Source: Microbacterium gorillae
GTDB lineage: Bacteria > Actinomycetota > Actinomycetes > Actinomycetales > Microbacteriaceae
DNA length: 64,000 nt
Direction of reading: 5' to 3'
NCBI RefSeq assembly: GCF_000826185.2
Contig: NZ_LN648875.1
Location: forward strand, 926,356-990,355
The position numbers and the translations under genes are program-made. Below are positions 13,970 to 31,912 of the stretch, in pieces. The notes under the pieces are model-generated. The model made no database searches and was not told the DNA's origin. It saw only the letters and a list, made by a program, of their open reading frames with translations. How positions within the stretch are numbered: position 1 is the stretch's first letter; the number at the start of each line of letters is the position of its first letter.

Positions 13970-15604
13970 CTACAGTGCGACGTCACCGATCAGGTTCACA
14001 CGAATGCCCATCCCGTCCAGCATCGCGGCCTTCGCGGCCAGCGCCTTGTCGGCGGTCGCCGCGTCGGGCGCGTAGACGAGCTGCGCGTGGTTGGCCTTGT
14101 GGCGAGCCATGAACTGATCCCGCGTGACGCCGTGGAGCACGACGTGCGCGATCGGCCATTCCGGGTTCGTCGCGTCCTTGCGCCGCTGCGTCTCGGCCTC
14201 CGGAAGCGCGACCGCGGTCCCACGGAAGAGATCCGCCTGCAGCACCCCCTCGGCGATGAAGATCCGGCTGAGGACGAGCTCCCCCGGCCGCGAGACGCCG
14301 TTGATCGTCGAGCCACCCGCGGGGAAGAAGACCGGGTGCTGGCGCCAGCCCTCGGCGTGCTCCCATCCCCCGAGGTGCGAGCCCGGCACCGAGCCGGAGA
14401 TCTCGTACACCCACACGAACCGGCCGTCGTACTCCTCACCCCACCGGACGTCGTGCAGCGTGTTGTCCGGGACCAGCCCCATCGCCCGCCAGACACGATC
14501 GGTCACGAGCGTGTCGACGGCCACACCCTCATCGGCCTCGTTGAAGTGCGGGAACGCCCGCCCCTCGTGCAGGATGCGCTCGCCGTCCCGCGATCGCACG
14601 GGCGGGCGGTCGGTCGAGTTCAGCAGCCCCTCGGCGAGATCCGACGCCGGAACGAGGTCCTTCAGCCCCTGCTGGTACTGGATGCCGACCGCATCCAGGC
14701 CGAAGTCGTCCGCGATCCGCAGTGCCGCGATGTACATCTTGAACTGCCAGCGCAGCTGCGCCTCGGTGAGCTCGGTCGCCTCGTCCGTGCCGAGCCGGAA
14801 GGTCATCCCGCGCTCGCGCAACCAGTCCCCGACGGCGTCCGCCTCGGCATCATCGACGCGCAGCATCTCGGCGTACAGGGCCGACTGCGACAGCCGTTCC
14901 TTGTACACGCCGGTCGGGTTGAGCAGCTCGTCGTCGAAGATCGCGTTGTACATGCCCATGCAGCCCTCGTCGAAGACACCGACGATCGCCTTGTCCGTGT
15001 GAAGTTGCTCCGCGAGGGCGCGCCCGAGGCGCGTCTCCTCGGTGTCCGGGAGGTCCGGCAGCGGGCGAACATGCGAGAGGTCGTGCTCGATCCGCCCCGT
15101 CCGCGTCCACTCCTCGATCCCGGACCGGAACCACGTGTCCGTGAAGTCCACCGACCAGATCGTCGAGTAGCTGCGACCCATCTTCGTGAGCCCCGCGTTC
15201 AGCCCCAGCAATCCGACCAAGCCCGGCCAGTCTCCGGCGAAGTTCGCCACGGTGAGGATCGGCCCCGCGTGCGTGCGCAGACCGGCGAGCACGTGGTGGG
15301 AGTACTGCCAGACCGCCTCCGCGACGATCAAGGGGGCGTCCGGGGGAATGTCCCGGAACACCTCCATTCCCATGCGCTGGCTGGAGATGAATCCGTGGCC
15401 GGTCTCGGGATCGACGCCGTTGGCACGCCGGACGGTCCAGCCGAGGTCCGCGAACACACGGGTGACGCCCGCCTCCAGCTCAACCTGCGTCGGCCAGCCG
15501 GCGACGTTCGCGGACTCGCGCAGGTCGCCGGAGGCGATCAGGTACGCCGTCTGCGGCGGTGCGGACTCCTGCGGCCGTCGGGCCGGGAGCGTGTAGGTGC
15601 TCAT
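13970..15604 (-). CDS. L-fucose/D-arabinose isomerase-like protein
   Basis: A 544-residue cytosolic protein of the fucose/arabinose isomerase fold. The family interconverts aldoses and ketoses using a divalent metal. L-fucose isomerases also accept D-arabinose, giving D-ribulose. Visible landmarks are VGVFDEGCMGMYNAIFDDE (acidic, probable metal-site region) and the C-terminal KANHAQLVYA block with a conserved His. The start ATG overlaps the stop of the GH116 gene (ATGA), behind GGAGGAG, so the two are translationally coupled. In this locus its likely job is D-arabinose to D-ribulose, feeding the FGGY kinase at 26170. The substrate assignment is inference from neighbours; L-fucose or another aldose remains possible. 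The open frame extends beyond this start without plausible coding. Confidence 0.8.
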   Translation of the reverse strand: MSTYTLPARRPQESAPPQTAYLIASGDLRESANVAGWPTQVELEAGVTRVFADLGWTVRRANGVDPETGHGFISSQRMGMEVFRDIPPDAPLIVAEAVWQYSHHVLAGLRTHAGPILTVANFAGDWPGLVGLLGLNAGLTKMGRSYSTIWSVDFTDTWFRSGIEEWTRTGRIEHDLSHVRPLPDLPDTEETRLGRALAEQLHTDKAIVGVFDEGCMGMYNAIFDDELLNPTGVYKERLSQSALYAEMLRVDDAEADAVGDWLRERGMTFRLGTDEATELTEAQLRWQFKMYIAALRIADDFGLDAVGIQYQQGLKDLVPASDLAEGLLNSTDRPPVRSRDGERILHEGRAFPHFNEADEGVAVDTLVTDRVWRAMGLVPDNTLHDVRWGEEYDGRFVWVYEISGSVPGSHLGGWEHAEGWRQHPVFFPAGGSTINGVSRPGELVLSRIFIAEGVLQADLFRGTAVALPEAETQRRKDATNPEWPIAHVVLHGVTRDQFMARHKANHAQLVYAPDAATADKALAAKAAMLDGMGIRVNLIGDVAL

Positions 15605-18129
15605 GTCTCCTCCTTCTGCGATGGCTGAGCGGTGCCGCATACGGCGCTCGCTCCCGCCTCGATCACCAGATCCGTTGCGACCGGCACGCCGCGCAGAGTC
15701 AGCTCGCGCAGCCGCAGCCGCCCACCGTGGACGTCGAGCCGGACCTCGTCGCCGTCCACCCCCACCGTCCCCCAGGCGTGCGCCGTGGTGAACGGCGCTC
15801 GCACATCTCCCGCCGGAGCGAAGTGCAGCGTCTCGGCCGCCGCGTCCCACTGGGCGCCGGTGGCCGCGATGAGCAGCCCCCACGACGACAGCGAACGGGC
15901 GTAATGATTGCCGCACTCGATCTCGTTCCACGGATTGCGGACGACGCCGTCGTAGCGGGCGCGAGCTCGCTCCTCGATCGCGAGCGCCGCCTCCGGCATC
16001 CCGGCGAACAGCGCCGTCGCAGCCACCTGATGCTCGACCCCGGTCCACACTTCGTCCGCGTAGACGAACGGGATCCGCGGCCGGCCACCGTTCGGCCACG
16101 ACGCCAGCAGGAGGCCGCCCTCGCCACGGACGGCGAACACGCGCTGCGTGGACGCCACGCTCGAGACGTCTTCGCGCAGGTTGTGCTCCACGATCTCCGC
16201 CAGCGCGGAGCGGATGTGGGCGGGGTCGACAACCGGCCCCAACCCGTTCAGGTAGGCGTGGAACTGCCCGAGCAGCTGATCCGAGAGCACCCCCGTGCCG
16301 TACTGATACCGCTCGGCATCGACGTCGTCGATGCGCTGGACGTACCGTCGCCCGTCGAACAGCCGCTCGTCCATGAGCCGGGATGCCGCCCCGGCCCGCG
16401 CACGCCAGTCCGACGCCGACGCGACGTCACCGACCGCGTCCGCCAGGTCCGCGCCGGCGAGCATCGCCGTGACGTACAGTCCGTTGGCCAACGGTTCGAT
16501 CCCGTGGAACTCGATGTCGTACGTGTTGTGCAGCTCGCCGTCCAGCAGCCCGTCGCCGTCCCGGTCCCACCGGGTGGCCGCGTAGCGCAGGCAGCGCGCC
16601 GCCGCCGGGTACAGCTCGCCCAGGAACGCCGCGTCACCGCTGAAGCGCCATTCGCGGTGCAGTCGGATCACGGTGCCCAACTGGCCGTCCACGGCCGGAC
16701 CCATGAACCAGGGGCGGTCCCCGAAGACGGCGGCGGTGCGGAACTTCTGCGCGCCGTCCTCATCGGTCTCCCGCAGGAACTCGTTGCGCCGGGCGGAACG
16801 CTCGAGCCCGGGCCAGAGCCAGGCGATGGTCTGTGCGTAGGACCAGACGTGCGTGCATGTACCCTCGCAGCTGCCCACGTGGTCGAATGACCCCTCCCAA
16901 GCCGCGAACTGCCCGCCCGGTGTCCCGTCTTCGAGCCGGAAGCAGGTCGTGGAGCGCGCGGCGGCGATGTTCGCACCGATACTGTCGGCGAGGACGCCCG
17001 GAAGTCCGCCGCTGTAGAGGGCGTCGCGGAACGCCAGCGTCGCGGCTTCCAGCGCGGCGAGGTCGCCGTGCAGTGCCATCGCCGCCGACCAGGCGTCCGG
17101 CCACCGGGTCGCGTACTGATTTCGCACGATCTCGTCTCGGTGCGCTTCTTCGGGGAAGATGTTGCCGGACCAGGCCCGTTGCCGATTCGGGAAGCACCAG
17201 GCGAGAACGAACTCGAAGTCCTGCTCGGCACCGGGGGCGATCTCGTGGCGGATGCCGAGCGAACCGGTGCGCAGCCGCGGCAACCGAGCAAGAACCTCGG
17301 CCTCGCTCATCTCTCCATCAGCGGCGGAATCCGCGAACAGCCCCGCGGGCCGGTCCACCAGCGTCGCCTCCGACTCCGCGTCGAGCAGACCGTCCGCGCT
17401 GAAGTCGTTCCAGAACAGCCGCGAGCCGTCCGGCCAGAAGCCCACCACCCACTGCGGCTTCACCGTCACCGCGTCATCCGTGGTGGTCAGGCTCACCGTG
17501 CCGGCACCGAGATCACCCTCCGGCAGGTCGGTGTCGAACGCGAGGCCGCGCACGGCACCTTCCTCCCGCCACCGCACGTTCTGCGTGGCCCGCATGCCCC
17601 AGGGCCCGTCGCCACGGCCGCCGGGGTGCGAGAGGCTGCCGGCGATCGTCACCGAGACAGGCTCCGGACCGGGGTTCGTCACGGTGTACCGCAGCACGGC
17701 GACCGGCATTCCGGACGCGTCCTCATCGAGCGGGACGAGCGGAGTGAAGGCGGTCAACCGCACGGCAACGGGCAGCGCGGCATCGGTGAAGTCCACTCGG
17801 GCGGTCGGGTAGGTTCCCGTGAGCGTCGCGCCGTCCAGGCGCGGAAGCCCGGCCACGCGCTCGAACGGATACCCGGCATCGAGATCGTGCGGGCCGTTGA
17901 GTACGGCTTCGAGCACGCGTGACACGGCGCGCCCATCGCCGGCATCGGCGTGGATCGCGAAGAACGAATAGGGGTTGATCCGCCCCTTGTCCGGGTGGTT
18001 CTCCAGCTCCCAGTCGCGCAGTTCCCCACGCGCACCGAGCGAGACGTTGCCGGTGCCGATCCCGCCGAGGGGAAAGGCGGCCCGGGATGCCGTGGACGCC
18101 AGCACGCGGGCCCCGTCGCCGCGGATCAT
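15601..18129 (-). CDS. GH116 family glycoside hydrolase, probable exo-D-arabinofuranosidase
   Basis: An 842-residue cytosolic enzyme (no signal peptide) with an N-terminal beta-sandwich (about 1-330) and a C-terminal (alpha/alpha)6 catalytic barrel, the GH116 (GBA2/DUF608) layout. The N-terminus has the family motif FPLGGIGTGNVSLG. HNTYDIEF (Asp538) aligns with the family acid/base Asp; SCEGTCTHVW (Glu422) is the best nucleophile candidate, though I could not align it with certainty. GH116 members include beta-glucosidases, but an enzyme from Microbacterium arabinogalactanolyticum has been described as an exo-beta-D-arabinofuranosidase, and GH172 plus GH183 neighbours support that role here. 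ATG 18129 overlaps the stop of a 26-residue upstream ORF, and its own stop overlaps the isomerase start. Confidence 0.88.
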   Translation of the reverse strand: MIRGDGARVLASTASRAAFPLGGIGTGNVSLGARGELRDWELENHPDKGRINPYSFFAIHADAGDGRAVSRVLEAVLNGPHDLDAGYPFERVAGLPRLDGATLTGTYPTARVDFTDAALPVAVRLTAFTPLVPLDEDASGMPVAVLRYTVTNPGPEPVSVTIAGSLSHPGGRGDGPWGMRATQNVRWREEGAVRGLAFDTDLPEGDLGAGTVSLTTTDDAVTVKPQWVVGFWPDGSRLFWNDFSADGLLDAESEATLVDRPAGLFADSAADGEMSEAEVLARLPRLRTGSLGIRHEIAPGAEQDFEFVLAWCFPNRQRAWSGNIFPEEAHRDEIVRNQYATRWPDAWSAAMALHGDLAALEAATLAFRDALYSGGLPGVLADSIGANIAAARSTTCFRLEDGTPGGQFAAWEGSFDHVGSCEGTCTHVWSYAQTIAWLWPGLERSARRNEFLRETDEDGAQKFRTAAVFGDRPWFMGPAVDGQLGTVIRLHREWRFSGDAAFLGELYPAAARCLRYAATRWDRDGDGLLDGELHNTYDIEFHGIEPLANGLYVTAMLAGADLADAVGDVASASDWRARAGAASRLMDERLFDGRRYVQRIDDVDAERYQYGTGVLSDQLLGQFHAYLNGLGPVVDPAHIRSALAEIVEHNLREDVSSVASTQRVFAVRGEGGLLLASWPNGGRPRIPFVYADEVWTGVEHQVAATALFAGMPEAALAIEERARARYDGVVRNPWNEIECGNHYARSLSSWGLLIAATGAQWDAAAETLHFAPAGDVRAPFTTAHAWGTVGVDGDEVRLDVHGGRLRLRELTLRGVPVATDLVIEAGASAVCGTAQPSQKEET

Positions 18130-18206
18130 GACGCGCGCCCCGCCCGGCACGCGCCCGCGAACCGCACACGCCCATCGTGGGCGCCGATAGCGATTCGTCC
18201 CGTCAC
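18126..18206 (-). CDS. possible 26-residue leader peptide of the GH116 operon
   Basis: A GTG-started frame with a strong ribosome-binding site (GAGGAGG, 5 nt upstream) lies between the operator-promoter and GH116, and its TGA overlaps the GH116 ATG. The GH116 start itself has no good ribosome-binding site, so re-initiation after this ORF would explain its translation. The peptide is basic and has no recognised motif. Alternative: the GH116 protein really begins elsewhere, for example at GTG 18150. Confidence 0.4.
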   Translation of the reverse strand: MTGRIAIGAHDGRVRFAGACRAGRAS

Positions 18207-18231
18207 GTGACCCTCCTCGGCCTCACGCCAG

Positions 18232-18260
18232 AGCGTAGACGAAATCGATTTCATGGACAA
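18232..18260 (-). promoter_or_regulatory. GH116-operon promoter with LacI operator in the spacer
   Basis: On the minus strand: -35 TTGTCC (18260-18255), 17-bp spacer, -10 TACGCT (18237-18232). The spacer holds the perfect palindrome GAAATCGATTTC (18241-18252). Repressor binding there would block RNA polymerase. The stretch from spacer to -10 is nearly identical to the promoter at 24865-24893. Confidence 0.85.
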
Positions 18261-18300
18261 GAGCGCGGGAACGGATGCCGTAGGCCCAGCACGACGGCGC

Positions 18301-19287
18301 TCAGCCGGCGGTCACCGTCGCAGGAAGCACCTCGTGCGGAAGCACGACGGTCCGCGCAGCCCCGGCATCCCCGCCGATGCGGTCCAGCAGCAACTGCGCC
18401 GCGGTCGTTCCCATCTGGCGCGCGTTCAGCCGGATGATCGTCACGAGGTTCGGACTCAGCGTCGTGAACGGCAGGGAGCCGACGACCGCGACCCCGATCT
18501 GCGGCGGCGTGAGCCCGCGCCCGCTCAGTTCCTGGAGAACACCGACGCCGAGGAGGTTGTTGCCCGCCACGATCGCATCCGGCGGCTCCGGCCCCTCCAG
18601 CAGATCAGCGGTGGCATCGCGGCCACCGTCCACCCGGAAAGTGCTGAAGCGCAACAGGCCCTCGGACTCGGCTTCGGACAGCTCACGCTGCACCGTCGAC
18701 CGCCACCCGTCGGCACGCTCCCGGGCCGTTTCGATCGACTCCGGGCCGGTGATGCACGCGATGCGCTGATAGCCCGCCGCAACCAGTTGCGCCGTGGCCT
18801 CGGCACCGGCGCTGCGGTTGTCCATGACCACACTGTCCACGTCGTACCCCGTCCGCCGGTCCACGGCGACGACGGGGCGGCCACCCGCGAGAACCTCGTC
18901 CAGCCGTGACGCGCTGCTCGCCGCGGCGAGAATGACGCCGGCCATGTTCTCCGCGAGGGCGATCTCGAGGTACGTGCGCTCCTTCGCCAACTCCGCATCG
19001 GTGTTGCACAGCACGACGGAGTAGCCGGCAGCCTGTGCGACGTCCTCCACGCCGCGCGCCATCTCCGTGAAGTAGGGGTTCTCGATATCCGGGATGACCA
19101 GCGCGATGACCTCCGCGCTCTGCTTGCGCAGCGTCCGCGCGGCCCGGTTCGGCGTGAACCGCAGCGCCGTCGCCGCCGACCGCACGGCTTTCGCCTTGGC
19201 CTCGGAGACGCTCGCCCCGTTGAACACACGCGATACCGTCGCCGGGCTGACGCCCGCCAATTTCGCGACCTCATAAATGGTGGCCAC
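18301..19287 (-). CDS. LacI-family repressor of the arabinan locus
   Basis: A 328-residue LacI/GalR regulator: N-terminal helix-turn-helix (IYEVAKLAGVSPATVSRVFNGA), hinge helix (about 45-57), and a periplasmic-binding-protein-like sensor domain (from IALVIPDIENPYFTEMARGVE). The GTG start is preceded by AAGGGGAG. It lies between the GH116 operon and the divergent GH172 gene. Four GAAATCGATT(T/G)C palindromes in promoters of this locus make it the likely local repressor, with a sugar released from D-arabinan as inducer. That pairing is inference; the DNA sites and the gene are seen directly. Confidence 0.92.
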   Translation of the reverse strand: MATIYEVAKLAGVSPATVSRVFNGASVSEAKAKAVRSAATALRFTPNRAARTLRKQSAEVIALVIPDIENPYFTEMARGVEDVAQAAGYSVVLCNTDAELAKERTYLEIALAENMAGVILAAASSASRLDEVLAGGRPVVAVDRRTGYDVDSVVMDNRSAGAEATAQLVAAGYQRIACITGPESIETARERADGWRSTVQRELSEAESEGLLRFSTFRVDGGRDATADLLEGPEPPDAIVAGNNLLGVGVLQELSGRGLTPPQIGVAVVGSLPFTTLSPNLVTIIRLNARQMGTTAAQLLLDRIGGDAGAARTVVLPHEVLPATVTAG

Positions 19288-19314
19288 GCGTCTCCCCTTC
19301 GACCACCCGGAGCA

Positions 19315-19358
19315 TTGACACGCCGGTCAGCCCACCCTACAGTGTTGAAATCGATTGC
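19315..19358 (+). promoter_or_regulatory. GH172 promoter with LacI operator at the start site
   Basis: -35 TTGACA (19315-19320), 17-bp spacer, -10 TACAGT (19338-19343), then an operator GAAATCGATTGC (19347-19358) that matches the locus palindrome at 11 of 12 positions and covers the expected transcription start. The site lies between the divergent lacI and GH172 genes and may also affect lacI itself. Confidence 0.8.
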
Positions 19359-19416
19359 AGAAGGGCAACGCGCTCCGGAATCACGCGTTCGCTCACCCGG
19401 AGCACCAGGGAGCCAC

Positions 19417-20550
19417 ATGAGTCTGCCACCGTCCGACCTGGCTTCGATCGCTGCGCTGCGTCCCGTGCGCACCCGGTCGATCTCACCGGAGAACTTCGAC
19501 GGCAGCCCGGGCGGGGGCGGTCGGGCCACGACGGGCACGGGAGCGAGTTGCGCGCGCGATCTCGGCCCGGGGTGGAAGATCTCCCCCAGCGTCGACATCC
19601 GCGCCGGCGAGACGTTCGACCTCGCCCGCATCGAGGGTGCCGGCAAGATCACCCACATCTGGATCACCACGCACACCGACAACTGGCGCACGCTGCTGCT
19701 CCGCGCGTACTGGGACGGTGCGGAGGAACCGGCCGTGGAAGTGCCCTACGGGGACTTCTTCTGCAACGGGTGGGGTGTGTTCGCCCAGGTGAACTCCACC
19801 GCCATCGCCGCGAACCCCCACGGCGGGTTCAACTCGTACTGGCCGATGCCCTTCCGCTCGGGTGCGCGACTGACGGTCGAGAACCTCTCCGACGTGGACG
19901 TTCGCATCTACTACCAGGTGACCTACGAGATCGACGGCGACTACTCGAATGATGCGTACTTCCACGCCCAGTGGCGCCGCTCGGCCCCGCTGGAGGACCG
20001 CACTCCGCACGTGATCCTGGAGGGCATCGAAGGACAGGGACAGTACGTCGGCACCTACATCGCGTGGGGAGTGAACTCCAACGGCTGGTGGGGTGAGGGC
20101 GAGATCAAGTTCTACCTCGACGAAGACGACGAGTACCCGACCATCTGCGGCACCGGCACCGAGGACTACTTCGGCGGGGCATGGAACTTCGATGTGCCCG
20201 GTGAGGGGTACACGTCGTTCTCGACGCCGTACCTCGGCATGCCGCAGGTCATCCGCCCGGACGGCCTGTACGTCAGCCAGCAGCGGTTCGGCCTGTACCG
20301 ATGGCACCTGCTCGATCCGATCCACTTCAGCACCGGAATCCCGAAGGTCGACATCCAGGCGCTCGGCTGGCGCAGCGGATGGCGCTACCTGCCGCTGCGC
20401 GATGACATCGCCTCGACCGCGATGTTCTACCTGGATCGACCCACCGCGCGACGGCCCCGCACGCCATCGGCGGACGATCTGGAGGTGCACCTGGGCGCCG
20501 CCCCGGTGCCGGACATCGGCGCCACCCCACCGCGAGCGCCGCAGGACTGA
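19417..20550 (+). CDS. GH172 (DUF2961) family enzyme, probable exo-alpha-D-arabinofuranosidase
   Basis: A 377-residue cytosolic protein of the DUF2961 family, now GH172, whose known members act on alpha-D-fructofuranosides or alpha-D-arabinofuranosides. No signal peptide. The family core is clear: WWGEGEIKFYLD (224-235) and ICGTGTEDYFGGAWNF (243-258). Glutamates 227/229 and 249 are the likely catalytic pair by analogy with the family. The ATG follows GGGAG; the open frame upstream of it runs through the promoter and is not coding. An exo-alpha-D-arabinofuranosidase of this family has been described from Microbacterium arabinogalactanolyticum. With GH116 and GH183 alongside, release of D-arabinose from imported arabinan fragments is the best reading. 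Confidence 0.88.
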   Translation: MSLPPSDLASIAALRPVRTRSISPENFDGSPGGGGRATTGTGASCARDLGPGWKISPSVDIRAGETFDLARIEGAGKITHIWITTHTDNWRTLLLRAYWDGAEEPAVEVPYGDFFCNGWGVFAQVNSTAIAANPHGGFNSYWPMPFRSGARLTVENLSDVDVRIYYQVTYEIDGDYSNDAYFHAQWRRSAPLEDRTPHVILEGIEGQGQYVGTYIAWGVNSNGWWGEGEIKFYLDEDDEYPTICGTGTEDYFGGAWNFDVPGEGYTSFSTPYLGMPQVIRPDGLYVSQQRFGLYRWHLLDPIHFSTGIPKVDIQALGWRSGWRYLPLRDDIASTAMFYLDRPTARRPRTPSADDLEVHLGAAPVPDIGATPPRAPQD

Positions 20551-20561
20551 GGCGCAAACCG

Positions 20562-21152
20562 ATGCTGCTTTCGCTGACGGGCGCCAGCGGCGCGGGAAAG
20601 TCCACGGCCCTCGACCGCCTCACGTCGACCGCTTGGCCGGTACCGGTGAGCCTGGTGGAGTTCGATTCGATCGGGGTCCCGGAGGGGGCGGACACCGCCT
20701 GGCGTCACCGCACCATCGAACACTGGGTGCGTGAGGCCGTCGCCGAGCAGGCGGACGGGGGTCATCTGCTGCTGTGCGGCCAAGTGCCGATGGGCGAACT
20801 ACTGGCGGCACCCTCGGCCGACCTGCTGGATGGAATCAGCATCTGCGTCCTGCACTGTTCACCGGAGACCCGCACGCGACGTCTGCTGCACCGCGGCGAG
20901 CATCCGGACGCGATCGTGCACCACAACCGGTTCGGCGAATGGTTCCTCGCGCACACCCTCGATCCCACGCACGCGCCCGAGGTGATCCGGACGGACGGCG
21001 ATCCGACGATGCGCTGGTCGCGTTGGTCGGACTGGAGCGCCGGCGATCCGCGGTGGCGTGCGACGATCATCGACACCGACACGCTGACGCCGCAGGAGAG
21101 CGCGTCAGCGGTCGAGGAGTGGGCACGGAGCGAACTCGCTCCGATCATCTGA
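20562..21152 (+). CDS. P-loop NTPase / kinase-like protein
   Basis: A 196-residue protein with a Walker A motif GASGAGKST (7-15) at the very N-terminus, a DSIG acidic turn after strand 2, and an HLLLCGQVPMGELL stretch like the substrate loop of small nucleoside or sugar kinases. An arginine pair (RTRRLLHRGEH) could form the lid. It follows GH172 by 11 bp on the same strand, so it is in the same transcript. It may phosphorylate a sugar or nucleoside, but no specific substrate can be read. It could also be a general nucleoside-kinase-like protein unrelated to arabinan. Confidence 0.7.
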   Translation: MLLSLTGASGAGKSTALDRLTSTAWPVPVSLVEFDSIGVPEGADTAWRHRTIEHWVREAVAEQADGGHLLLCGQVPMGELLAAPSADLLDGISICVLHCSPETRTRRLLHRGEHPDAIVHHNRFGEWFLAHTLDPTHAPEVIRTDGDPTMRWSRWSDWSAGDPRWRATIIDTDTLTPQESASAVEEWARSELAPII

Positions 21153-21174
21153 GCCGCTTCGCGCGGGCGGCGGC

Positions 21175-22077
21175 CTACTTCAGACCGGCCATCTTGATGT
21201 TGCCGATGATCTGCCGCTGGAAGATCAGGAACAGGATCATCACCGGGGCGGCGGCGAGCACGGAGCCCGCCATCAGCAGACCGAGCTCGGAACTGCGCTC
21301 CGAGCGGAAGGTCGCGAGGTACTGCTGGATCACGAACCGTTCGGGTGTCGTGATGGTCATGATCGGCCAGACGTAGGAGTTCCAGTAGGCCAGGAACGCC
21401 GTGATGCCCATCACCACGAACGGCGGCTTGGACAGCGGCAGGAACAGCCGGAGGAAGATCGCGAACCGCCCGCACCCGTCCAGCATCGCGGCCTCCTCGA
21501 GGCTCGCCGGGATGTTCAGGTAGAACTGCCGGATGAAGAAGATCATCGCGGCGCTGGCAGCGCCCGGGATGACCAGGACCGCAAGCGTGTCCAGCATCGA
21601 CAGCCGGGTCACCACGATGAAGCTCGTCAGCAGGATGGTCATGCCGGGAATGAACATCGTGGTGATCACGATCACCCAGATCGTCCGCTTGAACCGGAAC
21701 TCCAGCCGGGCGAAGGCGTAGGCCGCGAGCGAGTTGACGGCCAAGCTCAACACCGTGAACAGCACAGCGCCGAAGAACGTCCACGCCATCGTCCGCAGGA
21801 AGGACGGGTCGCCGAGGATCTGCGCGTAGTTCTGCCAGCGCCACACCTCGGGGAAGAACTGGAACGGCGTCTGGATCACTTCGGTCTTCGACTTGAAGCC
21901 GGCCACGACCATCCAGGCGAGCGGAAACAGCGCCGCGAGAACGAAGGCGAGCCCGACGATCGTCTTGCCGATGGCGAAGAACCACCAGGTCGCGCCGTGG
22001 CGGTGATGCAGGCGTGAGGGTCGCTGGGGTGCACCGGCCGGGTCGGCCACGGTCAGCGTACGGGTGGCGATGGCCAT
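21175..22077 (-). CDS. ABC sugar transporter permease (MalG type)
   Basis: A 300-residue inner-membrane permease with six predicted transmembrane helices and the CUT1 signature EEAAMLDGCGRFAIFLRLFLPL (EAA loop, residues about 197-218) that docks the ATPase. Third gene of the operon: binding protein, MalF-type permease, MalG-type permease. No ATP-binding subunit is present in the locus, so a shared MsiK/MalK-type ATPase elsewhere in the genome is expected. Its substrate is probably the oligosaccharides released by the GH183 lipoprotein. Confidence 0.92.
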   Translation of the reverse strand: MAIATRTLTVADPAGAPQRPSRLHHRHGATWWFFAIGKTIVGLAFVLAALFPLAWMVVAGFKSKTEVIQTPFQFFPEVWRWQNYAQILGDPSFLRTMAWTFFGAVLFTVLSLAVNSLAAYAFARLEFRFKRTIWVIVITTMFIPGMTILLTSFIVVTRLSMLDTLAVLVIPGAASAAMIFFIRQFYLNIPASLEEAAMLDGCGRFAIFLRLFLPLSKPPFVVMGITAFLAYWNSYVWPIMTITTPERFVIQQYLATFRSERSSELGLLMAGSVLAAAPVMILFLIFQRQIIGNIKMAGLK

Positions 22078-22138
22078 CAGCGGCTCCGTCCCGGACGGTT
22101 GCTCAGTGCGGACACGGTGTGTGACATCGGGAATGTCA

Positions 22139-23062
22139 TCAGTCCACCAGCCTCTCGGAGTTCACGAACCGGAAGACCAGCGCGGAGACCGTGCCCAGGA
22201 CCACGAACAGCAGCAGCGCCGCCGCGATCGAGTAGCCCACGTTCGTGTCGTTGCGGAAGTGATTGAAGATGAACAGGTTCGGCGTCGTGGTGGAGGCCAG
22301 CGGCCCACCGCCGGTCATGATCAACGGAAGCTCGAACTGCTGGATCGCCGCGACGAAACCCGTGATCAGCAGGTACAGGAAGATGTTCTTCATCTGCGGC
22401 ATCGTGATGTAGAAGGTCTTCTGCCACCAGTTCGCACCCTCCATCGCAGCCGCCTCGTAGAACTCCGCGGGGATGTCGATCATCGCCGCGACCATGATCA
22501 GCGAGGTCAGCCCCATCCCGAGCCAGATCGCCGGCACCGCGATCGCCAGCAGCGCCCAGGCCGGGTCGCCGAGCCACGCGATCGGATCGATGCCGACGGC
22601 GGCGAGGGCGGCGTTGAGCAGTCCGCCGGAGTAGTCGTAGATCAGCACGAAGACGATCGAGGCGATCACGCTGGAGATGATCGTCGGAATGTAGATGCTG
22701 ACCTTGAGCACGCTCGCGAAGCGCCTCGACACGGCGACGACGAGGCTCGCGAACAGGAACGCCAGGACGAGCATGATCGGCACCGTCAGGAGCACGAACA
22801 TGAAGCCACGTCCGATGGCGTCGTAGAACAGGGGGTCGGACAGGACGGCGGTGAAGTTGTTGAGTCCGACGAACACGGGGTCCTTGTAGAAGCTCCAGTC
22901 CTGGAAGGACAGGTACATGGCGTACACCGTCGGCCAGATGACGAACACCCCGAGCAGCCCGACCGCCGGCAGTAGGAACCAGTACGCGACCTTGCCGTCC
23001 CGGAACCGGTATCGATCGTGCGCGCGTCGCTGGGCGGCGACCGCCCCTGTCGCAGCCGTCAT
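22139..23062 (-). CDS. ABC sugar transporter permease (MalF type)
   Basis: A 307-residue permease with six transmembrane helices; the first begins at YWFLLPAVGLLGVFVIWP. The CUT1 EAA loop is EFYEAAAMEGANWWQKTFYITMPQM. ATG 23062 is preceded by GGGGAGG. Its 5' region lies in the first copy of a 281-bp duplication that looks like an assembly fault (22950-23511), but the coding sequence itself is in the clean half and reads normally. Forms the channel with the MalG-type partner encoded 61 bp downstream. Confidence 0.92.
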   Translation of the reverse strand: MTAATGAVAAQRRAHDRYRFRDGKVAYWFLLPAVGLLGVFVIWPTVYAMYLSFQDWSFYKDPVFVGLNNFTAVLSDPLFYDAIGRGFMFVLLTVPIMLVLAFLFASLVVAVSRRFASVLKVSIYIPTIISSVIASIVFVLIYDYSGGLLNAALAAVGIDPIAWLGDPAWALLAIAVPAIWLGMGLTSLIMVAAMIDIPAEFYEAAAMEGANWWQKTFYITMPQMKNIFLYLLITGFVAAIQQFELPLIMTGGGPLASTTTPNLFIFNHFRNDTNVGYSIAAALLLFVVLGTVSALVFRFVNSERLVD

Positions 23063-23511
23063 GCCGCCACCTCCCCGTTCTCGGGGACGGCGGGGGCGGG
23101 GGCGGCCGCCCCCCCCCTCCCCCCGGTCCCTTCCTTGGCGCCCTTTCTTCGGGACCCTCCGGCTCGCCGACCGCGGCGGTCGCCCTCTCCCCCCTCCCCG
23201 CGGCGGCGCGCCGCGTCCGCGCCCCCCCCCCCGACCGCCCCGCCCGCCGGCAGTAGGACCCAGTCCGCGCCCTGGCCGCCCCGGACCCGGTATCGATCGG
23301 GCGCGCGTCGCGGGGCGGCGCCCGCCCCTGTCGCAGCCGTCATGCCGCCCCCTCCCCGTTCTCGGGGACGGCGGGGGCCGCCGCCCCCGCCCCCGCCGTC
23401 CGCACGGTCACTTCTTGGGCGCCTTATCTGCGAGACCGTCGCGCTGCACGACCGTGGCGATCGCCTTCTCCGCCGTCGCGATGGCGGCGTCCGGCGTCGC
23501 GGCCCCCTTCA
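22950..23511. repeat. 281-bp tandem duplication with corrupted inner halves (probable assembly fault)
   Basis: The segment from the MalF-type permease 5' end to the binding-protein 3' end occurs twice, offset by 281 bp. The left half of copy 1 and the right half of copy 2 are normal coding sequence. The right half of copy 1 (about 23100-23230) and left half of copy 2 (about 23231-23340) are degraded versions in which most changes are A or T to C or G, producing C-runs. Both real genes stay intact outside it. Removing one unit leaves a 64-bp spacer. The 23063-23407 gap therefore holds no gene. Confidence 0.85.
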
Positions 23512-24775
23512 TCACCGTCTCCATCGCCGTGCCGACCGCGAGCGAGACGTCCCACGGGTAGGTCGGCTCCGGGATGGCGGTGGGGGCGATGTCCTTGACG
23601 AGGATGCTGGACCACGGGGCCTTCGCAGCCGCCTCATCCGCCGCGACCGCGTCCTGAACGGACTGCCGAACCGGGATCTTGGTGAACTGCGTGTTGACGA
23701 AGAACGGCACCACGTTCGCCGGATCCCCGGCGATCGACCAGGTGAGGAAGTCGGCCGCGGCCTGCGCGTTCTTGCTCTTCGCGTCGATCACCCACTTGAA
23801 GTTTCCGAGCGTGGTCGCGGTGCGATCGTTGCCGGCTTCCGAGCTCGGGAACGCTCCGACACCGGTCTTGGTGAGCAGGTCCTTGTAGTCGGAGCCGATC
23901 TCGGACATCATCCACGATCCGGACACCTTGAAGGCCACCTTCTGCTCTCCGAAGTCCTTACCCTCGACATACGCGGCCAACGGCTGCTTGGGCATGTACC
24001 CCTCATCCCAGAGCTTCTTGTAGTAGCCCATCAGCGCCTTGTAACCGTCATTGTTGATGTCGGCCGCTGTCCAGTCATCCTTCAGCGCGGTGTGACCGGC
24101 GAAGTTGTACTGCTGACCCACGGTCGACCAGGCGAACGTCGCCGCGTCCTGGGCCGGGGAGATGCAGTACTGGCCGCTCTTCAGCGTCGGCTTGATCTTG
24201 GCGCAGGCCGCGAGCAGGTCGTCCCACGTCGCGGGAGCCTTGTCCGTGTCAACCCCGGCTGCGGAGAGCATGTCCTTGTTCCAGAACAGCACCGCTTGCG
24301 CCTCCTGCAGCAGCGGGTAGGCGTAGTACGTGCCATCGACCGCGGAGATCGACGTCGCCGCCGGCAGGATCTCCTTGAGCTTGTCATCGGGCACCAGACC
24401 GTTGAGCTTGTGCAGCTGACCGGCGGCGACCGCATCCTGGATCGATCCGGAATGGGTGTAGATGTCCGGCGCCTTGCCCGCAGCCTGTGCGGCCTTCATC
24501 TTCTGGTCCCACGCATCGGCGGGGACTTCGGTGTCCACCACCTTGATCTTGCTCTGGGACTCGTTGAACTTCTTGACGATGCCGGAGTACCAGTCGTTCT
24601 CCGCCGGAGTGAAGGTGCGGTGCCAGAACTGCACTTCGGTGACGCCGCCCGCATCACCGCTTCCGCCGCCGGCGGATTCGCCGGGGGTGCCCGAACCGCA
24701 CCCGGCCAGCAGCGTGATCGCCGCCACGGCCCCGGTTGCACCGAGAACGAGCCGACGCGAACGTGATGTGCTCAT
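23408..24775 (-). CDS. ABC sugar transporter substrate-binding lipoprotein
   Basis: A 455-residue family 1 extracellular solute-binding protein. The signal peptide ends in the lipobox LLAGC (Cys26), so it is membrane-anchored outside the cell. A glycine/serine linker follows, then a two-lobed binding domain opening with EVQFWHRTFTPAENDWYSGIV. Start ATG has GAGGAAAG. An in-frame ATG 30 bp upstream lacks a ribosome-binding site. First gene of the importer operon, driven by a promoter whose spacer contains the LacI operator. Likely ligand: D-arabino-oligosaccharides, inferred from the flanking GH183, GH172 and GH116 genes. Confidence 0.92.
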   Translation of the reverse strand: MSTSRSRRLVLGATGAVAAITLLAGCGSGTPGESAGGGSGDAGGVTEVQFWHRTFTPAENDWYSGIVKKFNESQSKIKVVDTEVPADAWDQKMKAAQAAGKAPDIYTHSGSIQDAVAAGQLHKLNGLVPDDKLKEILPAATSISAVDGTYYAYPLLQEAQAVLFWNKDMLSAAGVDTDKAPATWDDLLAACAKIKPTLKSGQYCISPAQDAATFAWSTVGQQYNFAGHTALKDDWTAADINNDGYKALMGYYKKLWDEGYMPKQPLAAYVEGKDFGEQKVAFKVSGSWMMSEIGSDYKDLLTKTGVGAFPSSEAGNDRTATTLGNFKWVIDAKSKNAQAAADFLTWSIAGDPANVVPFFVNTQFTKIPVRQSVQDAVAADEAAAKAPWSSILVKDIAPTAIPEPTYPWDVSLAVGTAMETVMKGAATPDAAIATAEKAIATVVQRDGLADKAPKK

Positions 24776-24864
24776 GCTTTCCTCCTCAGGAAGCGACCCA
24801 TCCACGGGTCAGTGCCGTGACGCGACATCAGCTCGACGCACGTCGTCGCTGACCTCGTGGGGCC

Positions 24865-24893
24865 AGCGTAGACGAAATCGATTTCACGGTCAA
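24865..24893 (-). promoter_or_regulatory. ABC-importer promoter with LacI operator in the spacer
   Basis: Minus strand: -35 TTGACC (24893-24888), 17-bp spacer, -10 TACGCT (24870-24865); the spacer contains the perfect palindrome GAAATCGATTTC (24874-24885). The -35 box overlaps the stop codon of the GH183 gene, so the importer has its own regulated promoter directly behind GH183. Confidence 0.87.
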
Positions 24894-26041
24894 TGGGTGG
24901 CGAGACGATTGAGGTCGGCCGAGAACCAGAACACGTTGTACGGACCCCAGAGCGACAGGGTGAAGTAGATCGTCCGGCCGCCGTCCGTGACGTAACGCGG
25001 GTTGAGGAACGGCGCGTAGAGGCCCGGAAACTTCTTCCCGGACACCAGTTCGATCGGCTCACCCCACGACCCCCACGGCGTGATGCCCTCGCGGATGTAC
25101 GCATTGCCGGCATCCGAGTACGTCATCACCCAGCGGTCGAGATATGTCGAGAACATCACCGACAGCTCACCGATCGTGCCCTCGACGACGTGCTCGGCGT
25201 CCGCCGCGGATCCGCTCCACTGCGGCGTCCCATCCGCGCCGACGCCGGAGTAGTACTGGTACGCCGACGCGTCCTCCACCGCCTCCCGGCGGTCGGCCAC
25301 GCGCATCAGGTCGACGGATCCGAACCTCCCGGCCGGGATCGTCCAGAAGTAGATCTGCGCGCCGTCCGGGTCGTCGACGTGGGCGGTGGCGACCTGGATG
25401 GTGTTGGACCCACCAGGCCATCGCGGCTGCGCGAGCTCATGCCAGGAGCGCCCCTCGTCGTCCGAGCGCGCCAGGGCGGCGTAGTTCGCGTCCCAGGCAC
25501 CGGGCTCGCCCCAGTGCGAGACCGACATGAAGAAGGCGTACAGCGACCCGTCGACCGCGAACCCGTAGGTGGGGATCTTCGTCACCTCGCCGCCGAAGTC
25601 GTTGGCGTCGTGATCGCCCTCCACGATCGGCGCCGCCAGGCCGAACTCGTCGACGGCCCAGCCGTCGAAGGTGATGCCGTCGGTCGGATCAGCGTCGGTG
25701 GACCAGGCGACCACATTCGATCGCCAGTTGCCGCCCTGCCCACCGATGGAGTCCGGGTCGCGTTCACCGAACGTATCGCCGAACAGGAAGTACGTCGTGT
25801 CATCGAGGTTGACCATCGAGCCGAGGTCGGTGCCGGCGACCCCCACACCGACGGTGTCGTTGATCGCCCCCGGACCGGTGAGACGCGCGATCTCGGTCAG
25901 CGCGCTCACGCCCCCGAGGACGAACGGCTTGGTCTGATCCAGGTTCACGGACACACCCTCTCCACCGGCGCACGCTGTCGCGAAGAACAGGAGCCCGAGC
26001 GCGCCGGCGGCCAGCATGCGTGCCCGTCGTCGCACCATCAT
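24890..26041 (-). CDS. GH183 (DUF4185) lipoprotein, probable endo-D-arabinanase
   Basis: A 383-residue surface lipoprotein: signal peptide with lipobox-like ATAC (Cys24), then a DUF4185 five-bladed-propeller-type domain. The acidic motifs GTDLGSMV (Asp72) and FGDTFG (Asp89) are the conserved family pair, followed by repeated blade motifs such as YAFFMSVSHWGEPG, YFWTIPAGRFGS and MFSTYLDRWVMTYSD. DUF4185 is now GH183; members from Microbacterium arabinogalactanolyticum, Dysgonomonas gadei and mycobacteria are endo-D-arabinanases. This would be the only extracellular enzyme of the locus. ATG 26041 (or 26038) sits just below its own operator; upstream in-frame sequence runs through that operator and is not coding. 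Confidence 0.86.
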   Translation of the reverse strand: MMVRRRARMLAAGALGLLFFATACAGGEGVSVNLDQTKPFVLGGVSALTEIARLTGPGAINDTVGVGVAGTDLGSMVNLDDTTYFLFGDTFGERDPDSIGGQGGNWRSNVVAWSTDADPTDGITFDGWAVDEFGLAAPIVEGDHDANDFGGEVTKIPTYGFAVDGSLYAFFMSVSHWGEPGAWDANYAALARSDDEGRSWHELAQPRWPGGSNTIQVATAHVDDPDGAQIYFWTIPAGRFGSVDLMRVADRREAVEDASAYQYYSGVGADGTPQWSGSAADAEHVVEGTIGELSVMFSTYLDRWVMTYSDAGNAYIREGITPWGSWGEPIELVSGKKFPGLYAPFLNPRYVTDGGRTIYFTLSLWGPYNVFWFSADLNRLATH

Positions 26042-26054
26042 GACCCCCGGAGGC

Positions 26055-26078
26055 GAAATCGATTTCACCTGCAGGGTA
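26055..26078 (-). promoter_or_regulatory. GH183 promoter region with LacI operator
   Basis: The palindrome GAAATCGATTTC (26055-26066) lies 14 bp before the GH183 start, just downstream of a probable -10 box TACCCT (minus strand, 26078-26073). No good -35 is visible. The operator would cover the transcription start, as at the GH172 promoter. Confidence 0.78.
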
Positions 26079-26169
26079 GGGCATCTTCGCGGCCCGCGGA
26101 ACACTGCCACGCGAGTCACGGCCCTGATGCCGGGCGCTCCCAGACGGCGCGGCCGAGCGGAAACGGTGC

Positions 26170-27681
26170 TCAGACCGTGGCGTGCTTCCCCCGGGCGAGC
26201 GCATGCTGGATGTCCCGTGTGGCGGCGTACAGCGCACGGTAACGGGCGAAGTTCGCATCGTGCCCGACGCGCGTCGCGGTGTTCGGCTCGATCACGATCG
26301 CCGTGTCGTTCCAGTCCTCGATCGGGAAGTCGCCGATCACGGCACGACGAGCGAGGTAGGCGGCCCCGTAGCTCGCTCCGATCGTCAGCCTCGGGACGTG
26401 CTGAGTCAGACCGGTGACGTCCGAGACCGTCTGCAGCCACAACCGGCCCTGCGTGCCACCCCCGACGGCGACGATCCGCGTGATCTCCGCGCCCGCTTCC
26501 CGCATGGCGTCGACGTTGTCGCGGACGCCGAACGCGGTCGCCTCGAGCGCCGCCCGATACAGGTCTCCGCGACCGTGGTCGAGGGTCAGGCCGGCGATCA
26601 CTCCGCGGGCGTCCGGGTCAAGGATCGGCGTGCGCTCCCCTGCGAAGTACGGCAGCATCAGCAGTCCTCGAGCGCCGGGCCCGGACGCCTCCGCCTCCGA
26701 AAGCAGTGTCGGGAAGTCCGCCCCCGTGAGTCGACGCAGCCAGTCGGTCACCGCGCCCGATGTGGCCAGCCCGCCGGCCAGGCACATGGTTTCCGGGAAG
26801 GCACCGACTGTCGTCCACATCGACGGATGGCGCATCGTGCGGATGTCCGTGGCGACGAGGAACATCGTCGTGCCGTACATCAGCAGCAGGTCACCGGGAC
26901 GAACGGCGCCGGCGCTGATGCCCTCGGTCCAAGCATCGATCGTCCCGCTGATCACCGGAATTCCCGCGGGCAGACCGGTCTCGGCCGCGGCCTCGGCTGC
27001 CACCGCGCCCACCACGTCCTTCGGGTAGACCAGGCGCGGACGCTCGATCCCGGGGGCGATGCGCTCCCACCACGGCTCGTGCCAGCGCCGGCGTTCGACG
27101 TCGTACAGCGGCGTGGACTGGCTGGCGCTGTGGTGGTCCAGCACGTATTCGCCGGTCAGGTGCCGGGCGAGGAACGACGCCGGCATGAAGAGTCGGCGCG
27201 CGGCGGCGTACGCCTCCGGCTCATGCTCCGCCACCCAACGGAGCTTCGGCCCCACGGCCTGTGTGGTGAGGCGAGAGCCGCCGATGGCTGTGACCATGTC
27301 CTCGCCGAGTTCGGTGGTGAGTTCCTCGATCTGCGCCGTCGCGCGCATGTCGACGCCGTAGAGGATCGCGGGGCGCACCGGCTGATCCCGGTCATCCGCC
27401 AGCAGGACGCACGGCCCCATCCCGCTCACTCCCACGGCGATGACAGCCGCCTCCGGGTGCGCGGCGAGCAGCTCACCCGTGAGGTCGACGAACTCGCGCC
27501 ACCAGGTGCGGCCGTCCATCTCCGCCCACGTGGGCTCGGGACGATCCACCCGGTGCTCGGCGACCGCCTGGCCGACGATCTCTCCCGCGGCATCGACGAG
27601 CACCGCCTTGGTGCTGGAAGTGCCGATGTCCACTCCGAGCGTCACCTCGGTCGTCGCTCTGTCATCCCGGACCTTCGTCAT
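26170..27681 (-). CDS. FGGY-family carbohydrate kinase, probable D-ribulokinase
   Basis: A 503-residue cytosolic FGGY kinase. The N-terminal half has the phosphate loop GVDIGTSSTKAVL (16-28) and GVSGMGP; the C-terminal half has GTIDAWTEGISAG (246-258), with Asp249 the likely catalytic base, then LMYGTTMF and the adenosine motif AVGGGTQGRLW. The family includes xylulokinase, ribulokinase and others. In this locus the parsimonious substrate is D-ribulose made by the isomerase at 13970, giving D-ribulose 5-phosphate for the pentose phosphate pathway. No LacI operator is visible directly upstream, and the ribosome-binding site (GGGAAG) is modest. Confidence 0.85.
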   Translation of the reverse strand: MTKVRDDRATTEVTLGVDIGTSSTKAVLVDAAGEIVGQAVAEHRVDRPEPTWAEMDGRTWWREFVDLTGELLAAHPEAAVIAVGVSGMGPCVLLADDRDQPVRPAILYGVDMRATAQIEELTTELGEDMVTAIGGSRLTTQAVGPKLRWVAEHEPEAYAAARRLFMPASFLARHLTGEYVLDHHSASQSTPLYDVERRRWHEPWWERIAPGIERPRLVYPKDVVGAVAAEAAAETGLPAGIPVISGTIDAWTEGISAGAVRPGDLLLMYGTTMFLVATDIRTMRHPSMWTTVGAFPETMCLAGGLATSGAVTDWLRRLTGADFPTLLSEAEASGPGARGLLMLPYFAGERTPILDPDARGVIAGLTLDHGRGDLYRAALEATAFGVRDNVDAMREAGAEITRIVAVGGGTQGRLWLQTVSDVTGLTQHVPRLTIGASYGAAYLARRAVIGDFPIEDWNDTAIVIEPNTATRVGHDANFARYRALYAATRDIQHALARGKHATV

Positions 27682-27799
27682 GGCGCCGCTTCCCGTCGTC
27701 GATGGTCGCCGGCGATGAGGGCCCGCCGGTCGGACGATCCATTTCAGCGCCTTCGGATCGCCCCGTCCACCCGCAGCGTCGCAACTGGCGCGGGAACGC

Positions 27800-27833
27800 G
27801 AAACGGGCGCCTCCCGAGGGAGGCGCCCGTTTC
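27800..27833. terminator. hairpin terminator downstream of hspR
   Basis: Perfect 15-bp arms (GAAACGGGCGCCTCC / GGAGGCGCCCGTTTC) around CGAG, 10 bp beyond the hspR stop. It ends the dnaK operon on the minus strand. Confidence 0.88.
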
Positions 27834-27842
27834 ATAGCGGTG

Positions 27843-28298
27843 TCAGTCCGCGGTGGCGTCCGGATCCGCGCGGTGCGGATGAGGACGGTACAGCGTGACC
27901 TCAGTGGAGCGCCGGACACGACGGCCGGCGCGGAGCGTGATGATCGAGCCGGTGGCGCCGGCGGCGAACACTCGCGCTCCGGGGCGGCTCTCCGCGTCCT
28001 GGCGCGCCTGCTCCTGCAGGTCGGTGACCTGCCGGGTGAGCGAGCGGACCGTCTTCTCCAGCTCGATGATCCGCGCGATGGCCGGCAGGCTCATCCCGTC
28101 CCCCGACATCTGCGCCACCTGGCGCAACTGTCGGATGTGGACCACCGAGTAGCGGCGACTGCCGCCCCGGGTCCGGCCCGGGACGACGAGTCCGATCCGG
28201 TCGTACTGCCGAAGAGTCTGCGGGTGCATGCCGGCCAGCTCCGCGGCCACGGCGATCGCGAAGATCGGCGCGTCCTCGTCACGGGTCTGGTCTGACAT
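27843..28298 (-). CDS. hspR: heat-shock repressor HspR (MerR family)
   Basis: A 151-residue MerR-type regulator: winged HTH (IFAIAVAAELAGMHPQTLRQYDRIGLVVP), GSRRYS wing, and a coiled-coil dimerisation helix (about 75-100). This is the HspR signature; HspR represses dnaK and clpB by binding HAIR sites and uses DnaK as co-repressor. ATG 28298 is used (AAAGGAG upstream); a GTG codon immediately before is in frame. Last gene of the dnaK-grpE-dnaJ-hspR operon, the classical actinobacterial order. HAIR sites are visible in front of dnaK and clpB. Confidence 0.95.
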   Translation of the reverse strand: MSDQTRDEDAPIFAIAVAAELAGMHPQTLRQYDRIGLVVPGRTRGGSRRYSVVHIRQLRQVAQMSGDGMSLPAIARIIELEKTVRSLTRQVTDLQEQARQDAESRPGARVFAAGATGSIITLRAGRRVRRSTEVTLYRPHPHRADPDATAD

Positions 28299-28334
28299 CA
28301 CTCACTCCTTTCGCCTTTCGCGGGCCACGAACCG

Positions 28335-29309: not shown

Positions 29310-29326
29310 CGATCCCCCCTGTTCGC

Positions 29327-29920: not shown

Positions 29921-29925
29921 GTCTC

Positions 29926-31912
<1,987 letters not shown>

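Follow-up and report, generated by a model that had tools for sequence, protein, structure and literature searches.

We identified a putative D-arabinan utilisation locus in Microbacterium gorillae within a window of 64,000 nt, the whole stretch of DNA that was analysed (GCF_000826185.2, NZ_LN648875.1, positions 926,356-990,355). The following features were found, with coordinates given as positions in the window:

13970..15604, minus strand: 544-aa isomerase resembling FucI / D-arabinose isomerase, predicted to convert D-arabinose to D-ribulose; Fucose_iso_C
15601..18129, minus strand: predicted GH116 exo-beta-D-arabinofuranosidase, ExoMA2 orthologue, predicted cytoplasmic; 8ic6 match
18240..18253, no strand: operator-like palindrome CGAAATCGATTTCA upstream of GH116-isomerase
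18301..19287, minus strand: LacI-family regulator; Pfam LacI and Peripla_BP_1, 68% to LacI of the reference locus L120 (see below)
19346..19359, no strand: imperfect operator-like palindrome TGAAATCGATTGCA in the LacI / GH172 gap
19417..20550, plus strand: predicted GH172 exo-alpha-D-arabinofuranosidase, ExoMA1 orthologue, predicted cytoplasmic; 8ic8 match
21175..22077, minus strand: ABC permease 2; Pfam BPD_transp_1, 88% to L120
22139..23062, minus strand: ABC permease 1; Pfam BPD_transp_1, 82% to L120
23408..24775, minus strand: lipoprotein substrate-binding protein (SBP); SBP_bac_1/8, lipobox LAGC, 76% to L120
24873..24886, no strand: operator-like palindrome CGAAATCGATTTCA upstream of SBP-permease-permease
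24890..26041, minus strand: GH183 (DUF4185) lipoprotein, MIAR_33320-type, predicted membrane-anchored endo-D-arabinanase; PF13810
26054..26067, no strand: operator-like palindrome CGAAATCGATTTCA, 12 bases from the GH183 start codon
26170..27681, minus strand: FGGY kinase, predicted D-ribulokinase, displaced; Pfam FGGY_N/FGGY_C

All genes named in the original prediction were therefore found in a single block (13970-27681) using Pfam, with GH172 recognised by its match to the solved ExoMA1; NCBIfam gave no name to GH183, GH172, GH116 or the isomerase. The isomerase (start ATG 15604, preceded by GGAGGA) and the stop end of GH116 share 4 bases. This gene set is not a chance assembly, because the scores against solved D-arabinan enzymes are 1150 bits for GH116 (8ic6), 797 for GH172 (ExoMA1, 8ic8) and 148 for GH183, and because the isomerase accompanies a strong GH183 (at least 100 bits) in 48/48 genomes of our survey, which comprised 198 Microbacterium genomes, that of the window included.

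Relation to the published M. arabinogalactanolyticum locus

At the sequence level, the window locus is an orthologue of the polysaccharide utilisation locus (PUL) published for M. arabinogalactanolyticum. We found this PUL as locus L120 of another Microbacterium genome (G107), which encodes, at 100% identity, the crystallised ExoMA1 over 368 aa, EndoMA1 over 315 aa and ExoMA2 over a piece of 306 aa. The isomerase, GH116, kinase, LacI, GH172, permeases, SBP and SBP-side GH183 are orthologous between the two loci (64-89%), their strands are equal, and operator-like sites are found at corresponding places. Gene order is also equal except for the kinase. The L120 kinase, which the window kinase matches at 65%, sits between LacI and GH116, whereas that of the window is upstream of GH183 and beside dnaJ-dnaK, so that judged by sequence the kinase has moved relative to L120. 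In addition, the M. arabinogalactanolyticum PUL has three further GH183 genes, whereas the M. gorillae genome shows none of these three above the cut-off. The isomerase, kinase and importer had been expected to be less-studied additions to the pathway; however, PMC10509167 already places them in the PUL route to D-ribulose 5-phosphate, and it reports induction of the PUL by D-arabinose and by mycobacterial wall extract.

The two exo-enzymes fit their predicted role in D-arabinan degradation, as orthologues of ExoMA1 and ExoMA2 with conserved specificity residues. GH172 is 88.6% identical to ExoMA1 and retains the Fruf-blocking position Asn253 and the motif GAWNFD. GH116 (64% to L120) retains E431, H446, R483 and D557 of ExoMA2, numbered as in PMC10509167 (8ic6 chain numbering +4). 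Both would be expected to have the corresponding activities in M. gorillae. The ABC importer was predicted correctly as regards the SBP and the two permeases, but no ATPase gene was seen in the locus. The M. gorillae genome has a single MalK OB-domain match (G000:C12:183897), and the importer may depend on a shared MalK-type ATPase to take up what are presumably D-arabino-oligosaccharides.

The GH183 lipoprotein

The GH183 protein (PF13810, 263.1 bits vs a cut-off of 39.5) was set to start at ATG 26041, and a 516-aa frame was not adopted. The resulting 383-aa protein has a lipobox-like Cys at residue 24, is predicted to be a lipoprotein and adjoins the importer genes. In the tree it groups with L120_18644 (support 100/98); one row, L050 (47 bits), was a long-branch stray and was excluded from the clade count. 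Gene order and tree together identify it as an orthologue of MIAR_33320, and neither of EndoMA1 nor of EndoMA2. Alignment with the characterised M. arabinogalactanolyticum enzymes therefore gave the expected partners for GH172 and GH116 but not for GH183. MIAR_33320 was insoluble and not characterised, according to PMC10509167, and in the titles and abstract openings covered by our literature searches (DUF4185, endo-D-arabinanase, GH183 with lipoprotein) we found no assay of an enzyme of this type. The only clear polymer-cutting enzyme here is thus of the GH183 type that stayed insoluble in the published study.

The window GH183 shares 36% identity with EndoMA1 (8hhv), the likeness lying in residues of the catalytic domain. 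D33, D51, W138, R198, E243, L292 and Y293 of EndoMA1 are all present in the alignment, Asp33, Asp51 and Glu243 being conserved by sequence. Unlike EndoMA1, it has no C-terminal sugar-binding domain, as the match ends near its own C-terminus. In 14/15 loci, 2 of them from Paenibacillaceae, the window-type GH183 gene has a same-strand SBP gene no more than 439 bases away.

A single DUF4185 gene exceeds the family cut-off in the M. gorillae genome, and no EndoMA1-, EndoMA2- or MIAR_33220-type gene was found above it; a second match (C12:1634094, 32 bits) is below the cut-off and was left uncounted. Since importer and exo-enzymes could function without an endo-enzyme, the sole strong GH183 might open the polymer poorly, having another specificity or acting on very short chains, and the strain would then use D-arabino-oligosaccharides freed by neighbours or by mycobacteria. 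We regard such scavenging as unlikely, given that all 16 sequences of the window clade retain D33, D51, W138, R198, E243 and Y293, and 14 of them L292. Moreover, the window type is the only GH183 of at least 100 bits in 13 of the 48 genomes with a strong match (the window genome and 12 others), although five of these (G004, G099, G145, G160 and G197) also have 40-84-bit matches above the family cut-off, and one (G091), with GH183 split over two frames, was counted as window-type by assumption. We therefore favour a membrane-anchored endo-D-arabinanase activity for this protein, as predicted from its sequence. These 13 genomes offer a natural test of whether the MIAR_33320 type is a true endo-D-arabinanase. 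Ethambutol blocks the making of D-arabinan in mycobacteria, and enzymes that cut this polymer are wanted as tools.

The isomerase, the kinase and the candidate operator

The isomerase matches Fucose_iso_C at 33 bits. A single-sequence search of the PDB with it gave no match, but a profile of 26 relatives had the D-arabinose isomerase 3a9r of B. pallidus as its first match (E 7e-10). The AF2 model (pLDDT 89.6) aligns over residues 186-544 with the E. coli L-fucose isomerase FucI (1fui, Z 36.3) and with 3a9r (Z 35.0), at about 18% identity over the aligned part and with the N-terminal part outside the aligned rows; these values are from VIA-align, Foldseek rows (TM near 0.5, large rmsd) having been set aside. 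As modelled, the fold is of the FucI / D-arabinose isomerase type. The metal ligands of FucI-type enzymes are Glu, Asp and His. D385 and H506 are invariant in the 26 rows and align with the D and H of 3a9r, and Asp356 or Glu357 are candidates for the third ligand. Our literature search found no paper on such an isomerase in Microbacterium.

For the kinase, the best family model was TIGR01312 xylulokinase, with a score of 327.9 that is under the cut-off of 380.25. Another FGGY kinase of the M. gorillae genome exceeds this cut-off (395.7), and a xylose-isomerase-like TIM barrel is coded nearby.

The isomerase was found in 95/198 genomes, and 47 of these 95 are without a strong GH183. If GH183 is counted by the PF13810 cut-off, 52 genomes have it and 50 of them have the isomerase (G110 and G133 do not). 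A Fisher value calculated in this survey takes no account of kinship and was not treated as a probability. Isomerase and kinase are thus not confined to D-arabinan loci; together with LacI they form a cassette that is wider than these loci. In 6 of 27 loci hand-picked from the 47 isomerase-only genomes, the isomerase has an SDR, a DHDPS-family aldolase and ABC permeases encoded close by, and in 10 it lies near TctA. FucI-type enzymes take both L-fucose and D-arabinose, and the pair could mainly serve L-fucose or another relative of D-arabinose, being placed beside the hydrolases through shared ancestry or regulation. This seems improbable for the window locus: the best profile match is a D-arabinose isomerase, every strong-GH183 genome has the isomerase, and Pfam showed no aldolase among the locus genes. 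Furthermore, Dysgonomonas gadei makes a predicted fucose isomerase of its PUL42 in bulk on D-arabinan, according to PMC10115798. D-arabinose is therefore our preferred substrate for the isomerase, and D-ribulose would be that of the kinase; the pair is an obvious candidate to carry out the D-arabinose step.

The palindrome TGAAATCGATTTCR occurs at four places in the locus and recurs in relatives. Five sites with at most 2 mismatches were found genome-wide, four of them in the locus, compared with 0 for the reversed control; the fifth (G000:C12:1513064, 2 mismatches) lies within open frames, one of 503 codons, and was taken as chance. The LacI-GH172 gap of L120 has the identical 14 bases at the corresponding place. 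Exact 12-mer sites numbered 139 in the 48 GH183 genomes, 34 in the 47 isomerase-only genomes and 1 in the 103 genomes without isomerase (G119). They were absent from two GH183 genomes (G108, 79% complete, and G163, 76% complete) and from 22/47 isomerase-only genomes. The palindrome is probably the LacI operator, and from the distribution of sites LacI would be expected to bind it. Our literature search found no paper on LacI, operator and D-arabinose. The shared site could provide a simple marker for membership of the regulon. For the kinase, no operator-like site with at most 4 mismatches was found within 26068-28400, and scans of its upstream region for promoters and terminators returned nothing. 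In L120, no site with at most 3 mismatches directly precedes the EndoMA1 and EndoMA2 genes. Both enzymes are induced in M. arabinogalactanolyticum, as stated in PMC10509167, and their induction without a directly preceding site counts against the reading of the locus proposed here.

Proposed route and source of the polymer

Taken together, the locus is very probably one for the utilisation of D-arabinan (or D-arabino-oligosaccharides) and a pared-down orthologue of the M. arabinogalactanolyticum PUL. In the proposed route, the membrane-anchored GH183 lipoprotein would cleave foreign mycobacterial or corynebacterial alpha-D-arabinan at the cell surface, and the oligosaccharides would be taken up through the two permeases with the help of the lipoprotein SBP, a shared MalK-type ATPase supplying the energy. 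In the cytoplasm, GH116 would act on beta ends and GH172 on alpha links to release D-arabinose; the FucI-like isomerase would convert this to D-ribulose, and the FGGY kinase would turn the latter into D-ribulose 5-phosphate. Until D-arabinose or one of its products appears, LacI would repress GH116-isomerase, SBP-permeases and GH183, and would hold GH172 less tightly. The route is likely, by sequence, to be complete; we do not put it more strongly because GH183 is not an orthologue of a characterised endo-enzyme, the isomerase and kinase are wider than D-arabinan loci, and the kinase has no operator-like site.

No PF04602 arabinosyltransferase match was found in the M. gorillae genome, with C. 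glutamicum as a positive control; the polymer would therefore come from other bacteria, which supports the suggestion that the organism feeds on foreign walls. Remodelling of its own envelope arabinan, as discussed for mycobacteria, which have D-arabinan-acting GH183 enzymes (PMC10115798), is highly improbable in view of this result, of the importer, isomerase and kinase genes that the locus also contains, and of a genus shared with the genome that carries the M. arabinogalactanolyticum enzymes.

Tentatively, utilisation of foreign D-arabinan may here represent a lean, cell-tethered ("selfish") mode of feeding, in which an importer-linked GH183 clade (Actinomycetota and Bacillota), which would suffice as sole endo-D-arabinanase in many Microbacterium, was added to an older, portable, one-operator LacI-kinase-isomerase cassette. 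Two systems, compared by description, resemble the window locus. PUL42 of D. gadei, a member of the Bacteroidota unlike the window organism, shares GH172, GH183 and the predicted fucose isomerase (PMC10115798) and a putative GH116 (as described in PMC10509167). M. amalyticus, which differs from M. gorillae in organism and lifestyle, has a lipoprotein DUF4185 and a cytoplasmic GH172, and the same order of surface cleavage, import and completion inside the cell has been proposed for it (PMC10115798).

Locus content and orthology with a published PUL

We identified every gene that the original prediction had placed in a D-arabinan utilisation block, by Pfam matches (FGGY kinase, DUF4185 (GH183), SBP, two permeases, LacI, GH116 and a Fucose_iso_C protein) and, for GH172, by a 797-bit match to the solved exo-enzyme ExoMA1 of Microbacterium arabinogalactanolyticum. 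The starts below were picked by eye from upstream sequence.

13970-15604, - strand: FucI/D-arabinose isomerase-like protein (start 15604)
start 18129: GH116
start 19417, + strand: GH172
start 24775: SBP
start 26041: GH183
26170-27681, - strand: FGGY kinase, predicted D-ribulokinase

The GH116 stop and the isomerase start overlap by 4 bases. Since no ATPase gene was seen within the locus and the genome has one MalK OB-domain match, the importer likely uses a shared ATPase.

A D-arabinan PUL of M. arabinogalactanolyticum has already been published (PMC10509167). Among the genomes searched, G107, which is counted in the same genus as the window genome and so places the window in Microbacterium, contains ExoMA1 (368/368 aa), the endo-enzyme EndoMA1 (315 aa) and a 306-aa piece of the exo-enzyme ExoMA2, all at 100% identity; because of these matches its PUL, L120, is either the published one or one identical in these enzymes. 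The window proteins are 89% (GH172), 88 and 82% (permeases), 80% (isomerase), 76% (SBP), 68% (LacI), 66% (GH183), 65% (kinase) and 64% (GH116) identical to those of L120. The window locus is confirmed as a pared-down orthologue of the published PUL, ordinary in kind and useful in detail. The importer, isomerase and kinase, earlier thought to be its less studied part, are not new, having already been placed on the path to D-ribulose 5-phosphate in PMC10509167.

Hydrolases and isomerase

Comparison of the exo-enzymes with their characterised relatives, using the ExoMA2 key residues and the role of Asn253 in GH172 (blocking fructofuranose) from PMC10509167, upheld their assignment. The GH116 keeps the nucleophile and acid/base of ExoMA2, as well as both residues that separate it from a GH116 beta-glucosidase, and the GH172 keeps Asn253. 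No signal peptide was found by eye in either.

The GH183 genes of L120 include EndoMA1, a second divergent one (EndoMA2 by order) and one adjoining the SBP. The last is MIAR_33320 by gene order, MIAR_33310 being the SBP (PMC10509167). The predicted endo-enzyme is indeed present in the window, but it groups with MIAR_33320, which was not obtained soluble in PMC10509167, rather than with EndoMA1 (clade support 100/98; 16 real rows, leaving out a stray 17th). It is the one GH183 over the cut-off in its genome, and the locus makes this type of GH183 testable. Equivalents of EndoMA1 Asp33, Asp51, Trp138, Arg198, Glu243 and Tyr293 are kept in 16/16 clade members and that of Leu292 in 14/16. A lipobox (loose pattern) is found in 14/16, and none was seen by eye in eight EndoMA1-type and one EndoMA2-type N-termini. 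An SBP gene lies at most 439 bases away on the same strand in 14 of 15 loci with window-type GH183, one Paenibacillus and one Cohnella locus among them, although these loci were gathered via GH172 or picked for GH183 and are not an unbiased survey. The idea of a tethered GH183 has a precedent in PMC10115798, which proposed for M. amalyticus that a DUF4185 lipoprotein at the cell surface supplies a GH172 in the cytoplasm; the DUF4185 enzymes assayed in that paper come from several lobes of the family. A second, weak DUF4185 match in the window genome (G000:C12:1634094-1634429, in L002 and L088; 32 bits, below the cut-off) lies in a 394-aa frame; similarly weak matches turn up in further Microbacterium genomes, some of which lack the isomerase.

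The top match of a 26-row isomerase profile was D-arabinose isomerase 3a9r (E 7e-10), which may have been helped by three rows that are themselves FucI-like (24-26% identical). The AF2 model (pLDDT 89.6, pTM 0.89) aligned to FucI 1fui with Z 36.3 and to 3a9r with Z 35.0 (333 residues, 2.5 A, 18% identity), compared with Z 28-31 for L-arabinose isomerases. Identity between the window kinase and 44 kinases of compared loci is 57-68%; most of these adjoin a window-type isomerase, and four, in Streptomyces (L034, L050, L059, L064), adjoin a distant FucI-like protein. Its identity to six other FGGY rows is 25-29%. The substrates of isomerase and kinase are predicted. The window genome also encodes a separate xylulokinase over the family cut-off (L129, G000:C12:1021000-1031000); its neighbours include a ROK protein and a xylose-isomerase-like TIM barrel, so that this looks like an ordinary xylose locus.

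A probable LacI operator

The palindrome TGAAATCGATTTCA occurs at four sites in the window at up to 3 mismatches (0.5 expected), and at up to 2 mismatches at five sites in 3.69 Mb, four of them in the locus (reversed control, 0). The four operator-like sites lie as follows, with sites at corresponding places in L120.

before GH116-isomerase
between LacI and GH172
before SBP-permeases
before GH183

Counted over 198 Microbacterium genomes, there are 139 exact GAAATCGATTTC sites in the 48 genomes that have both the isomerase and a strong GH183 (at least 100 bits), 34 in the 47 with isomerase alone and a single one in the 103 that lack the isomerase. One arm of the pre-GH172 site is imperfect in both the window and L120, which is suggestive beside the mild induction of GH172 (3.5- and 6-fold, against >10-fold for GH183 and GH116; PMC10509167), as a single match and not a test. 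As a counterpoint, EndoMA1 and EndoMA2 were both induced (PMC10509167), but neither has its own site in L120 at up to 3 mismatches, so read-through would have to be assumed. No site precedes the window kinase at up to 4 mismatches.

A probable isomerase-kinase-LacI unit in the genus

The isomerase is present in 95/198 genomes. From the 47 loci that lack a strong GH183 we read a hand-picked set of 27, including two truncated at contig ends; 17 have the kinase, 10 TctA and 6 an SDR with a DHDPS-family aldolase, and some carry the same operator-like site as the window. Such loci suggest that LacI, kinase and isomerase form a wider unit which the hydrolases and importer have joined. In L120 the kinase lies between LacI and GH116, whereas in the window it adjoins the dnaJ-dnaK cluster (28335-31794). 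The PUL is beside dnaJ-dnaK in the window, L006, L008, L009 and L096, and an isomerase without the PUL is found there in L091, L101, L108, L109 and L118 (dnaJ-to-isomerase distance 2.7-16 kb), a pattern consistent with an old site where modules were gained and lost.

TctA-type transporter genes and a DHDPS-family aldolase are near the isomerase in L089, L091, L099, L100, L101, L103, L106, L109, L111 and L113, five of which have no kinase in view. In L092, L097, L098, L114, L116 and L119 the isomerase occurs with an SDR, a DHDPS-family aldolase, ABC permease genes and operator-like sites, an arrangement suggesting that D-arabinose/L-fucose-like sugars are handled by an oxidative route paired with an isomerase route. 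Four Streptomyces loci (L030, L033, L042, L063), in which no GH116 match was found, combine GH172, isomerase, kinase, ABC permeases and LacI with a GH183 grouping with EndoMA2-type rows, and operator-like sites were seen in L030 and L033.
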